DNA from: Bacteroidales bacterium
GTDB lineage: Bacteria; Bacteroidota; Bacteroidia; Bacteroidales; UBA932
Assembly: GCA_017398335.1 (NCBI GenBank)
Contig: JAFQGK010000062.1
Coordinates: 1-63,569 of the forward strand
Length of the DNA: 63,569 nt
Direction of reading: 5' to 3'
The number at the start of each line of letters is the position of its first letter. Within the stretch, counting starts at the first letter, position 1. The translations under genes were made by a program, and so were the position numbers. A model generated the notes under the pieces. That model was given only the letters and a program-made list of their open reading frames with translations. It had not been told where the DNA came from and made no database searches. Positions 22,647 to 43,052 of the stretch are shown here, in pieces.

Positions 22647-24314
22647 TTATAATACAGTTATCCTTATTACTGAAGCTGTCGATTCATCGACCTTATAAGC
22701 GTCATCGGAGCGCACGCCCATTACCGCTGCAACGTGCTGTTTTTCAGCCATTTCCCCTCTACAATCCACTATCATCAATGCTGACTCCTTTTCCAAAGCG
22801 TCATATTTCAGGTCAGCAAAGAGGTCGCTGATCTTTTTCCTTCCGCGCATTCCGAAAGGTATCATCCAGTCTCCTTTCCTCCACTTTCTGCAGACAAAAG
22901 GAAACTTCAGTTTGCCGGCATCGAAGATAAGTGTTCCTGCAGGCTGTTGCAACGGCATTTCTGCAGACCATGGCAGGACCTCGACAACAAACCTTCGTCC
23001 GTTGCAATGATAGGTTCCCGCTCCGCGCACCGGCATGAAGGGATCCCCGATCAGGTCGGGGATGACGGTGACGTCATGGCCGGGGTGGGTCGCAACGTCA
23101 TGACCGGGATGGCTTGCGACGTCATGGCCGGCTTGACCGGCCATCTTCCGAACAACCACAAGACTTTGACGTTCCGTACGTAAAACATACCCGGCAGACT
23201 CGAAGCGCTTGCCCGAAACGGTTCTGTCTGACTTCAGCAGATTCTCCAGAGACTCGAGGACAGAAGTGTTGAAACCGTACGGTTCAAGAATATAATATAA
23301 AAGATAGCGCCACTGAGGAATTTCCAACAGCCGTGATGTTGAAATACTGATATCTTCACCCGTCCCATGATGACCGTCTGTAGTGCCATCATGATTTATT
23401 ACTTTCGGGAGTTGGGCAAGACACCACTCATCTACGATGGAAGAGGCGTCTGAAAGGTAGGTCATTTCGCGGTTGAGCGTACGTACATATGAAGGGTTCA
23501 TACGTTCGAAGAGCGGGAAGATTTCGTGACGGATGCTGTTGCGACGATATTCCACAGAAGAGTTTGTGCTGTCTTCACGATATGGTACTTTCCAGGCGAA
23601 TACGTGGCCTTCGATCTGCTTGCGGGTAAAGGTCAGGAGGGGGCGCAGAAGGGAGACAGATCCCCGATCAGGTCGGGGATGACAAAAGTCGTCATGGTCA
23701 GGATGACAAAAGTCGTCATGGTCGGGATGACAAAAGTCGTCAAGGTCAGGATGACAAAAGTTGTCAAGCCCGGCCTGACCAGGCTTCTGCTGCAATGGTA
23801 GCGGAGATACCGTCTTCATGCCTGTGAGGCCTTTGAGACCTGCTCCACGTACCATATTCAGAATCAACGTCTCTGCATTGTCATCAGCATGGTGTGCAAC
23901 GACTACTGCCTCATAACCATGTTCTTCGCACAATTCTCCGAACCACCTGTACCTCAATTCCCTGGCTGCCATCTCTATGCTCACGCCATTCTCTGCCGCA
24001 TAGCCGGCTGTATCGAAACCGACGCGATGCATACGCACACCATTCTCCTCAGCCCACTTGGTCACAAGCGCCTCGTCTCCGTCACTTTCCTCACCACGAA
24101 GATGAAAATTGCAATGCGCAATGGCGAAGCTATCCGGGCCGAAGCAGCGGAGCCATAGGTCGGCCAGGCACATCGAGTCGATGCCGCCGCTTACCGCCAG
24201 AAGGTAGAGATTTCTCGACTCACTTCGCTCGCTCGAAATGACAGGTGAGGCTGACCGTAAATCTGCGATCAGCCCCCTCAATTCTTCTACCTTATGCCTG
24301 AAGCGTTCAAGCAT
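22647..24314 (-). CDS. tilS: tRNA(Ile)-lysidine synthetase carrying in-frame repeat insertions
   Basis: Modifies C34 of the CAU-anticodon isoleucine tRNA to lysidine, using ATP and lysine; essential in most bacteria. The PP-loop SGGIDS is at residues 42-47, HHADDNAETL at about 141-150, and the RPLL, REDSTN and RRNSIRHEIFP segments are all intact, as is the C-terminal domain (RKWRKGDWMIPFGMRGRKKISDLF). At 555 residues it is about 100 longer than usual. The excess falls in three places: residues about 22-35 (ISSERSESRN), 177-218 (DDFCHPDH repeats) and 391-429 (HPGHDVA repeats ending VIPDLIGDP). Each matches a repeat element in the DNA. All three sit between conserved motifs, so the enzyme is probably active. 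The start ATG shares its A with the stop of the DUF3078 gene. Confidence 0.93.
   Translation of the reverse strand: MLERFRHKVEELRGLIADLRSASPVISSERSESRNLYLLAVSGGIDSMCLADLWLRCFGPDSFAIAHCNFHLRGEESDGDEALVTKWAEENGVRMHRVGFDTAGYAAENGVSIEMAARELRYRWFGELCEEHGYEAVVVAHHADDNAETLILNMVRGAGLKGLTGMKTVSPLPLQQKPGQAGLDNFCHPDLDDFCHPDHDDFCHPDHDDFCHPRPDRGSVSLLRPLLTFTRKQIEGHVFAWKVPYREDSTNSSVEYRRNSIRHEIFPLFERMNPSYVRTLNREMTYLSDASSIVDEWCLAQLPKVINHDGTTDGHHGTGEDISISTSRLLEIPQWRYLLYYILEPYGFNTSVLESLENLLKSDRTVSGKRFESAGYVLRTERQSLVVVRKMAGQAGHDVASHPGHDVATHPGHDVTVIPDLIGDPFMPVRGAGTYHCNGRRFVVEVLPWSAEMPLQQPAGTLIFDAGKLKFPFVCRKWRKGDWMIPFGMRGRKKISDLFADLKYDALEKESALMIVDCRGEMAEKQHVAAVMGVRSDDAYKVDESTASVIRITVL
23041..23144. repeat. Composite palindromic repeat, copy 2, inside tilS
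   Basis: The left palindrome is ATCCCCGA-TCAGG-TCGGGGAT (23043-23063). Then comes an array with CGTCAT at 23072, 23096 and 23120, a period of 24 bp. The right palindrome is ATGGCCGG-CTTGA-CCGGCCAT (23124-23144). In the tilS frame it reads MAGQAGHDV ... HPGHDVA ... VIPDLIGDP. Same architecture and orientation as the copy at 23660-23786, but the terminal palindrome is read in a different frame. Confidence 0.88.
23660..23786. repeat. Composite palindromic repeat, copy 1, inside tilS
   Basis: The left palindrome is ATCCCCGA-TCAGG-TCGGGGAT (23660-23680). Four 24-bp units follow with GATGAC at 23678, 23702, 23726 and 23750, giving the peptide repeat DDFCHPDH. The right palindrome is AAGCCCGG-CCTGA-CCAGGCTT (23766-23786), with one mismatch. 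It lies in a loop between the GLTGM and LLRPLL motifs of TilS. Confidence 0.9.
24209..24243. repeat. Short dispersed repeat-like segment at the tilS 5' end
   Basis: The plus-strand segment contains TTTCTCGACTCACTTCGCTC followed by GCTCGAAATGACA. In tilS it reads VISSERSESRNL, just before the PP-loop. From memory, this kind of TTCGCTCGAAATGACA sequence is a frequent dispersed intergenic repeat in Bacteroidota and other genomes. There is only one copy in this window, so the call is inference. Confidence 0.5.
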
Positions 24315-26992: not shown

Positions 26993-27160
26993 TGTATTCT
27001 TATTATTTGATTATATTTTATAACTTTGTAATGCAACTAAACCATTGGATCCGGCATCCATCTAATATAAAAAGGATGATCTTACTGCGGTATGGTTATT
27101 GCATTTAATAACAAGTTGCGAAGATACGAAATATTATTTATAAACATAGGAGAAAAGTCT
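26993..27160. promoter_or_regulatory. Shared divergent leader region of proS and the WY/Ser-rich lipoprotein
   Basis: A 168-bp intergenic region. The plus strand has TAACTTTG at 27021-27028, which would give the lipoprotein a leader of about 125 nt. The minus strand has TATCTTCG at 27119-27126, a near-match -7 box giving proS a leader of similar length. The two predicted transcripts would overlap by about 80 nt. An AGGAG Shine-Dalgarno-like sequence lies about 8 bp before the lipoprotein ATG, unusual for this phylum. Confidence 0.45.
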
Positions 27161-28384
27161 ATGAAAAAGATTATTACCCTGCTTGCAGGCGCCCTCTTCA
27201 TATTCTCCTCGTGCGGAACAACCGCCAGGTATTCCTCTGCTGACAGCGGACAGAGGTTTGCAGACGGGATTTACAGTTCAACCCCTTCCTATAAGGACAA
27301 GAACGCTACAGAGGCTTCAAAAGCCGGATTGCAGGAACTTGCTGAAAAGACCAGATCGTCACAGATATACTTGTTCGGGGACAAGAAGGACAGTGTGATG
27401 ATACCGGAAAACATGGCTGCCACCATCAGATTCGACAAGAATCTCGGCACCAGCGTTACCGTAGCGGATTTCGATCCATATGATTATTCTTCAGGGTGGT
27501 ACGCCGACAGATACAGATACAACAACTGGAACTGGAATTTCGGCGGCTACTATGACTGGCATTATGGCGGATGGTACGGTCCATGGTACTACAGCAGCAT
27601 ACATTACCCATGGCACTACAGAGGTTTTTATAACCCTTGGTATTACGGAGGCTGGTATGATCCGTGGTACGGAGGCGGTTTCTATGATCCTTGGTACTAT
27701 GGTTACAGAGGATGGTACGATCCGTTCTACGGCTATATGAACCCTTATTACTGCGGATGGTACGGCGGTTGGGACCCATACTGGCATCATCATCACCACC
27801 ATGTCGTTCTACCGTCACCGGGACATCATCCGACAAGAGAAGTATACAGAGGCTCCCGGGTAGAGACCGAGGGCAACAGAATGGTTGCAGGCAACAGAGT
27901 CACTGCCAGCACGGCAGGTTCGACGAACAGACGGGTCACCACGACCAGCAGAAGTTCATTCGGCACCAGCAGGTCATCCGCTTCACGAGATGTTCTCGGA
28001 AGAGGTACTGCTGCAGCAAGCCGCCCGTCTTCTTCATCATCCCCATCCGGCAGGGCAACAGTATCCGGCCAGAGCTCTACCAGATCGACAGCCACATACA
28101 GAAGGCCTTCAGGAATGTCTTCGCGCAGCTCGGCAAGTTCAACCGGCTACAGCAGAAGCACATCTTCCGGCAGCAACTCTTCTTATAGCAGAAGTTCGTC
28201 TTCAAGCAGCAGCTCTTCCTACAGCAGAAGCAGTTCGTCTGCAAGCCGCTCAAGCTACAGCACAGGATCTTCCGGCAGCTACAGCAGAAGCAGTTCGTCA
28301 AGCGGTGGTGGAGGTTACAGCAGGGGCAGTTCATCCGGTGGTGGCGGAGGCTACAGCAGGAGCAGTTCAGGAGGCCACAGATAA
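27161..28384 (+). CDS. Lipoprotein with Trp/Tyr/Gly repeat region and Ser-rich tail
   Basis: 407 residues from ATG 27161, chosen because it starts the signal peptide ending IFSSC (Cys18); the frame is open upstream to 27092. Residues about 20-105 are an ordinary globular segment. Residues about 112-208 are low-complexity repeats around G[WF]Y[DNG]PW[YF], such as GGWYDPWY, GGFYDPWYY and RGWYDPFY, at least seven times. Then come six histidines (209-214) and GHHP. The last 150 residues are Ser/Arg/Gly/Tyr repeats (SYSRSSSS, GGGGYSR) that would be unfolded. I do not recognise a function. A surface adhesive or matrix role is possible. The FadL-type gene follows 15 bp later. Confidence 0.85.
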   Translation: MKKIITLLAGALFIFSSCGTTARYSSADSGQRFADGIYSSTPSYKDKNATEASKAGLQELAEKTRSSQIYLFGDKKDSVMIPENMAATIRFDKNLGTSVTVADFDPYDYSSGWYADRYRYNNWNWNFGGYYDWHYGGWYGPWYYSSIHYPWHYRGFYNPWYYGGWYDPWYGGGFYDPWYYGYRGWYDPFYGYMNPYYCGWYGGWDPYWHHHHHHVVLPSPGHHPTREVYRGSRVETEGNRMVAGNRVTASTAGSTNRRVTTTSRSSFGTSRSSASRDVLGRGTAAASRPSSSSSPSGRATVSGQSSTRSTATYRRPSGMSSRSSASSTGYSRSTSSGSNSSYSRSSSSSSSSSYSRSSSSASRSSYSTGSSGSYSRSSSSSGGGGYSRGSSSGGGGGYSRSSSGGHR

Positions 28385-42599: not shown

Positions 42600-42611
42600 G
42601 TCTTCTGACAG

Positions 42612-42750
42612 ATTGCCGGTCAAGCCGGCAATGACGAGACGTCACTCCGACATAACGTCATCCCCGACATGGACATAACGTCATCCCCAACATGGACATA
42701 ACGTCATCCCCGACATGGACATAACGTCATCCCCGACATGATCGGGGATC
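42612..42750. repeat. Composite palindromic repeat, copy 3, intergenic
   Basis: The left palindrome is ATTGCCGG-TCAAG-CCGGCAAT (42612-42632). After a spacer, CGTCATCCCC recurs at 42656, 42679, 42702 and 42725, an exact 23-bp period. The right palindrome is ATCCCCGA-CATGA-TCGGGGAT (42729-42749). The final C at 42750 is also the last base of the ftsB-like stop codon on the other strand. This is the opposite orientation to the two copies in tilS. It fills the whole purB/ftsB gap and could also stop transcription of both. Confidence 0.92.
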
Positions 42751-43052
42751 TACTCAACAATATACACATCGTCGCCAGGGGCAGCAAAATTAAACTGTTC
42801 CCTGGCGAATTTTTCCAGAGTGTCACGATCGGTCTTGAGCATATTGACATGCTTGTCCATCTCCTCGATCTCTTTTTTGTACTGCTCGATCTGCCTTTCC
42901 TGACGTTTAATCTCCACACCTGCCTTTATCCAATGTATCCAGGTATTGCCGGGACCGACAATCCAAATGATAATGAACACAGCAGTACTGAACGCCACGA
43001 AGATTCTGAATCTGCGATGTTCTCCCTGAAATATATTGCTGAACCTGCTCAA
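42750..43052 (-). CDS. FtsB/DivIC-type septum formation initiator
   Basis: 100 residues: short cytoplasmic N-terminus, one membrane helix at about 17-36 (IFVAFSTAVFIIIWIVG), then a coiled coil (EIKRQERQIEQYKKEIEEMD) and a C-terminal segment AREQFNFAAPGDDVYIVE typical of the family. It would join the FtsQ/FtsL divisome complex. Single gene. A symmetrical divergent promoter lies upstream and a composite repeat touches its stop codon. Confidence 0.88.
   Translation of the reverse strand: MSRFSNIFQGEHRRFRIFVAFSTAVFIIIWIVGPGNTWIHWIKAGVEIKRQERQIEQYKKEIEEMDKHVNMLKTDRDTLEKFAREQFNFAAPGDDVYIVE

Follow-up and report, generated by a model that had tools for sequence, protein, structure and literature searches.

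Our findings make it very probable that a CGTC-type REP pair entered tilS twice in the genome of a gut bacterium, and that the copies lying in frame within loops survived and grew by tandem duplication. The sequence-only reading of this DNA had proposed that palindromic DNA was inserted twice in tilS, in frame, and that proposal is supported here by the dispersal of the repeat, by empty sites in relatives, by the frames in which it is read and by its location in loops.

The host gene lies in a window of 63,569 nucleotides, which is the whole stretch of DNA that was analysed. Its 555-aa ORF is TilS, as judged by a match to PF01171 (2.7e-43) and by TIGR02432 and TIGR02433, both TilS models, which exceed their cut-offs. 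As first noticed in the bare sequence, the same palindrome occurs twice in the gene, ATCCCCGATCAGGTCGGGGAT being found exactly at both sites (Table 1). The two copies are 617 nt apart and, because 617 equals 2 modulo 3, they are read in different frames, as HPRPDRGS at 23660 and VIPDLIGDP at 23043, just as had been described. Across the window four places fit the stem pattern at up to three mismatches, compared with 0.19 expected from 100 shuffles, none of which reached four. Concerning the extent of the element, the end palindrome of the earlier description stands, but the size had been understated: each tilS copy really spans about 106-131 nt, with an array and a second palindrome. In the direction of the gene, the inserts consist of the second palindrome, an array with a unit length of about 24 nt, which is clear at site 1 but weak at site 2, and GTCATCCCCGACCTGATCGGGGATC at the end, the site 1 insert reading KPGQAGLDNFCHPD...CHPRPDRGS. 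The third repeat of the gene belongs to another family, whose exact gapped pattern is found in six genomic copies. Elsewhere in the window, a Ser/Gly-rich tandem repeat of 36-nt units (28147-28369), unrelated to the palindromes, forms the C-terminal end of a 430-aa ORF (27092-28384).

Table 1. Positions of tilS, its palindromic inserts and two further copies of the element; positions refer to the window unless a locus is named.
Feature	Position	Strand	Remarks
tilS, tRNA(Ile)-lysidine synthetase, 555 aa	22647..24314	-	hosts three palindromic insertions
TilS site 2 insert, head-to-head REP pair and short array	23041..23146	-	residues ~391-425, read KMAGQAGHDV...VIPDLIGDP
Site 2 right-end palindrome, 8-bp stem and 5-nt loop	23043..23063	-	frame VIPDLIGDP
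Site 2 left-end palindrome AGATGGCCGGTCAAGCCGGCCATGAC	23121..23146	-	
TilS site 1 insert, REP pair and array of 24-nt units	23658..23788	-	residues ~177-219, after GLTGM
Site 1 right-end palindrome	23660..23680	-	frame HPRPDRGS
Site 1 tandem array, period 24, 3.8 copies, 93% matches	23677..23766	-	
Site 1 degenerate left-end palindrome AGAAGCCTGGTCAGGCCGGGCTTGAC	23763..23788	-	found by eye; missed by the left-end pattern search
Third palindromic repeat, other family, GTCATTTCGAGCG...CGAGAAATCT	24208..24242	-	read VISSERSESRN, residues 25-35, near the TilS N-terminus
Intergenic copy of the element	42610..42752	+	left end 42610-42635, period-23 array 42649-42740, right end 42729-42749
FAD-dependent protein, 544 aa	L020 4636-6270		insert read in frame as SGLPVAAGNDGKSGAGNDGKSGVGNDVASSSPTRSGI

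The right-end palindrome has the stem ATCCCCGA - 5 nt - TCGGGGAT and is predicted to form a hairpin. Each of the 25 copies with an exact stem in this genome has GTC ahead of the stem, preceded in turn by a variable base; behind the stem CT or CC is the usual sequence, the published tail consensus of CGTC REPs being CCA. The two GTC heads point inward. As a whole, the element consists of two unlike palindromes arranged head to head, and the stretch between the heads is often filled by a tandem array whose unit is specific to the locus. In the intergenic copy of the window the right end keeps the stem found in tilS and differs in the loop. On one side of this copy is an adenylosuccinate lyase gene (PF00206, PF08328), on the other a small ORF of the minus strand, and the period of the copy's array is not a multiple of 3.

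The source genome is a draft of 2.2 Mb in 73 contigs, 86% complete. Within it a search for the right-end palindrome with up to one mismatch gives 34 places, of which 25 have the exact stem, while the reversed control gives none; the expectation that the palindrome would be present elsewhere in the genome is thereby borne out. Two places were counted twice because contigs C57 and C44 overlap, and removal of the overlap leaves 32 distinct places, 24 with the exact stem, in 27 loci. The ends of these two contigs (L016, L021) overlap inside a repeat cluster and the contigs are thus probably adjacent. The second, left-end palindrome is found at 42 genomic places at up to three mismatches (control 0), and by hand comparison 14 of the 27 right-end loci have such a partner within 500 nt in matching orientation, a lower bound because degenerate left ends are missed. 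Beyond this genome, exact-stem matches are present in 14 of 61 genomes (this one, 36 congeners and 24 of other families of the order), all of one genus, and at two mismatches 54 of 121 genomes of the genus match. Of the four relatives that have a name, all are Bacteroidales MAGs, and three derive from the gut of goat or roe deer. Abutting palindrome dimers are found in loci L159 and L160. In genome G078 (L132-L147), which belongs to a related species, another partner repeat, TCATCCACCGATTTGGCGTTTTTGGTGGACAAGTTG, often comes after the right-end palindrome, and no long arrays were seen there.

Five of the 27 loci are within genes, namely TilS twice, TsaB (TIGR03725 over its cut-off), RimM (PF01782 over its cut-off, TIGR02273 under) and an FAD-dependent protein (PF21688, 1.1e-66); these five include the copy at C29:44464. 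The tsaB array, of about 150 aa, is the longest in-gene array seen in this analysis. Among the 18 exact copies that were examined in G078, four are in large ORFs, assigned by Pfam to YfhO, FtsX/MacB, DsbD and a TMEM260-like protein, the FtsX/MacB ORF corresponding to LolC/E by NCBIfam, under the cut-off. Spurious or unclear ORFs (L022, L024, L027, L138, L142, L143, L153, L158 and L163) were left out of the in-gene count, as was the second L154 copy, which precedes the likely start codon. Taken as a set, the nine gene insertions use five of the six frames (VIPDLIGD twice, HPRPDRGS once, SSPTRSGI once, IPDQVGDD three times, SPIRSGM twice). Four of the six frames are open in the standard repeat sequence; the SSPTRSGI frame, which has a stop in the standard loop, is open in the FAD gene because the loop of that copy differs. 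In RimM and in the four G078 genes the element is antisense. Since no peptide is common to all nine insertions, the conserved part is the DNA, which agrees with the view, taken earlier from the two tilS frames, that DNA rather than peptide is conserved. These data also bear on the alternative that a protein-level domain or repeat was duplicated within TilS. The occurrence of two similar-looking inserts in one protein is what such an event would leave, and yet the frames and end peptides of the inserts differ, and the genes of unrelated proteins contain this DNA too, in further frames and on the opposite strand. We consider this alternative ruled out by the differing frames and strands, its probability being negligible.

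The comparison of empty sites covered TilS, TsaB and RimM. For TilS, 33 relative rows were aligned, representing the best-scoring loci of 118 matching genus genomes and the four named MAGs; among them, L039 is identical in sequence to L069, and L057 and L059-L062 are without the C-terminal part. The site 1 array is present in none of the 33 rows, and in L068, L070, L071 and L055 site 1 is occupied by palindromes of other families. At site 2 the right-end repeat of tilS is found in 5 of the 33 rows, exactly in L068 and L070 and with two mismatches in L069/L039 and L058, while L071 has a palindrome of another family. Empty sites, as anticipated for inserted DNA, are therefore found in relatives, and the 33 rows do not share long TilS loops with a conserved peptide. 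A related palindrome (four mismatches), read SVIPGSTGNL, was observed at yet another place in TilS of L041, near residue 275. The long TsaB array is found in none of 28 relatives (29 loci, with L095 left out for lack of a usable ORF), and shorter or different palindromic inserts occupy the same loop in L073-L076 and, less clearly, in L077. For RimM, 1 of 29 relatives (L103) has a single palindrome, the others having no match at up to four mismatches. Hence, the presence of the element at a given gene differs between related species. The same rows speak to an artefact of assembly, a suspicion to which the fragmented and incomplete state of the draft lends some ground: separate MAGs of other samples (L068-L070) carry the site 2 insert in intact ORFs with varying array lengths, and this explanation is extremely unlikely.

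An AlphaFold model of TilS, built on 25 window and locus sequences, has a mean pLDDT of 77.5. Values below 50 are found at residues 23-33, 177-217 and 392-422, corresponding to the third palindrome, site 1 and site 2, and also at the short segments 251-254 and 310-318, which are not inserts. In the model the inserts are without confident predicted structure, i.e., loops, and the idea that they sit in TilS loops is thus upheld by their coincidence with low-confidence segments. In line with this, the alignment with the solved TilS structure 3a2k covers residues 37-171 and 214-308 but not the stretch between, leaving the site 1 insert without a counterpart. Comparison with L068-L070 gives a dN/dS of 0.07-0.08 for the TilS core (two further comparisons were saturated), which indicates that the core is under strong purifying selection. 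At site 2, pS is 0.23-0.35 versus 0.62-0.65 in the core (30-38 codons, L068-L070), so that the DNA there appears conserved or homogenised; selection on the hairpin or homogenisation could account for this low value.

Growth of the arrays seems to follow insertion. Upstream of pgk, identified by PF00162 in both genomes, the two palindromes abut in G032, and in the present genome the same pair, at the same place, has 26 nt between its heads. This dimer is a possible intermediate of array growth, and a 26-nt deletion in G032 accounts equally well for the difference. The spacing of the repeats is a multiple of 3 in 8 of 8 clear in-gene arrays versus 5 of 11 clear intergenic ones (p=0.018), where a clear intergenic period means an identity of 0.53 or more. 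The in-gene arrays are those of TilS site 1, TsaB and RimM in this genome and those of L070, L071 (two sites), L076 and L058; the five from relatives are mostly of other palindrome families, and the rows are related and not independent. Within this genome alone the difference in period is not significant (3/3 versus 5/11, p=0.21). A period of 24 is also seen at TilS site 2 and in the FAD gene, where it is weak (0.47) and falls below the threshold used. Repeat-to-repeat spacings alone were counted; in L058 the final step from the array to the end palindrome is 38 nt, which is not a multiple of 3. One might ask whether minisatellite growth in disordered loops, with no mobile element, would be enough, given that the arrays are tandem repeats with locus-specific units. 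However, the two end palindromes are common to many loci, where they bound arrays of unrelated units, and single or abutting palindromes free of any array are found in L103, L159 and L160. Pure minisatellite growth is rejected on account of the ends common to loci, and we regard it as very improbable.

Together, these observations allow us to propose a mechanism for the inserts of tilS. The CGTC-type REP would have entered both places as two unlike short palindromes joined head to head, in-frame insertions within loops would survive, and the DNA between the two heads would expand by tandem duplication, in steps of three bases inside genes. The copies may move as a hairpin substrate of a transposase, the arrays may be built by slippage or unequal recombination after insertion, and the insertions are presumed to be near neutral for the enzyme.

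An alternative that deserves consideration, although we hold it to be unlikely, is that the repeats are retained for a control function at the RNA or DNA level, their transcribed hairpins tuning expression of the downstream gene and the in-gene copies acting on the mRNA or being tolerated. Between co-directional genes, the array comes first and the right-end hairpin faces the next start codon in 13 of 14 cases in this genome and in 8 of 9 in G063, and this preference makes a transcribed-hairpin role possible for the intergenic copies. The same orientation is seen in 3 of 5 cases in G078 and 1 of 2 in G032. These counts rest on simple ORF calls, some read by eye. They leave out 8 of the 22 intergenic loci of this genome (tRNA neighbour, contig end, divergent or convergent genes), L158 and the second L154 copy in G063, convergent or divergent pairs and L138 in G078 (L138 would count against, giving 3/6), and L159, L160, L163 and L162, a copy without the exact tag, in G032. 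Relative to shuffles, folding is better in the TilS inserts (z -3.3 and -7.7), but the intergenic copy of the window folds less distinctively (z -2.8) and the right-end hairpin stretch of L160, with the left palindrome cut off, hardly folds (z -1.2). The low synonymous divergence at TilS site 2 would agree with a control function, whereas the variable presence at a given gene among related species, and the antisense orientation in RimM and the G078 genes, are against it.

With regard to the enzyme that may mobilise the repeat, three RAYT-like (Y1_Tnp) genes are present in this genome, and they are candidates only for moving CGTC REPs. None of the three is flanked on both sides by the palindrome, and the inverted repeats around them show by eye no resemblance to it. 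In L033 (1478-2395 and 2698-3879), one RAYT-like (Y1_Tnp) gene lies directly downstream of tsaB, about 0.7 kb from the tsaB insert. We discarded this gene as the cognate transposase, such a proximity being unremarkable by estimate with some 30 copies in 2.2 Mb. PF01797 and NF047646 were searched in 121 genomes of the genus and compared with palindrome counts at up to two mismatches; NF047646 gave no match over its cut-off. Y1_Tnp is present in 48 of 54 palindrome-positive genomes versus 41 of 67 others (p=0.0008), a comparison that ignores kinship and completeness. Among near-complete genomes of the genus, RAYT-like genes are found in 12 of 12 with at least five copies and in 31 of 41 with fewer (p=0.09). 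Four genomes with at least five palindrome copies, G001, G014, G143 and G144, all at most 83% complete, have no Y1_Tnp match, and G014 (70% complete, 10 copies) has a match to neither PF01797 nor NF047646. In view of the stricter comparison, the association is weak as evidence for a mobiliser and was not retained as such.

Taken further, and more doubtfully, head-to-head REP pairs might be growth points for new protein: several families, with hardly anything in common beyond a GTCAT head and an ATC tail, would insert into identical permissive loops in enzymes related to translation, and duplication of the head-proximal unit in three-base steps would give rise to fast-changing disordered segments. 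If this were true, a shared enzyme recognising the GTCAT head, possibly one of the RAYT-like proteins of this genus, would explain why families that differ in their stems share both their places and the side on which they grow. The case illustrates how repeat DNA can give rise to new disordered protein segments where the host gene is itself subject to strong purifying selection. Among the many related genomes of the genus, sites in named housekeeping genes are found filled, empty or filled differently, and upstream of pgk one species has a bare dimer where another has a spaced one, which allows insertion and array growth to be tested stage by stage.

The element can be placed among known repeats. 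The main text of Di Nocera, De Gregorio and Rocco (2013; PMC3733652) defines CGTC REPs by a CGTC (or TGTC, CCTC) tag, an 8-9 bp stem starting with A-T and a 4-5 nt loop, with head-to-head dimers predominating; family 2 has a 5-nt loop and mostly heterodimers. According to the same text, these repeats occur in five phyla including Bacteroidetes, in-gene copies exist and some genes are hit twice, clusters are rare and most dimer spacers measure 20-100 bp, and the repeats seem to be without a dedicated transposase, none being flanked by them (PMC3733652). The repeat described here likewise has a GTC head, an 8-bp stem starting with A-T, a 5-nt loop, head-to-head heterodimers and no flanked RAYT. 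Given that tag, stem, loop and head-to-head dimers match, it is a member of the known CGTC REP superfamily. It differs in what separates the heads, often a tandem array whose units are peculiar to the locus. The sequence-only reading knew of no such system in this lineage, a statement that does not hold, as CGTC REPs were reported from Bacteroidetes in 2013 (PMC3733652). The main-text sections of that article that were compared here, as distinct from its supplementary gene list, do not name tilS, tsaB or rimM, and no other relevant work on in-frame REPs in Bacteroidetes or in tilS was found among the listed titles of the open-licence literature, although such work may exist.

Among related systems, RPE-4 and RPE-6 are classed as CGTC REPs and dRS3 as CGTC-1 REPs, the Neisseria dRS3 being clustered with other repeats in intergenic mosaics (PMC3733652, main text); the likeness of our element to dRS3 is one of class. 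RPEs, of about 150 bp, encode a conserved peptide according to parts of a 2024 review (PMC10969869). Compared by description and not by RPE sequences, the present element resembles RPE-4, RPE-6 and RPE-1 as palindromic DNA lying in frame in housekeeping genes, and differs in being read in several frames and in its interior, which is often an array; the host's relatives, moreover, are Bacteroidales and not Rickettsia, which places it outside the RPEs. REPINs are non-autonomous elements made of two inverted REPs and a spacer that are dispersed as a unit, the classical ones having GTAG-type REPs and an adjacent RAYT. The first of these traits is found here too, but the tag is of the CGTC type (GTC) and no RAYT is flanked by the repeat, so that the element falls outside the REPINs as well. 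The kind of repeat is, in sum, known already, and tilS is an unusually clear and elaborate case of it; less usual are the frame-keeping arrays between the heads and the re-use of the same loops by unrelated palindromes.
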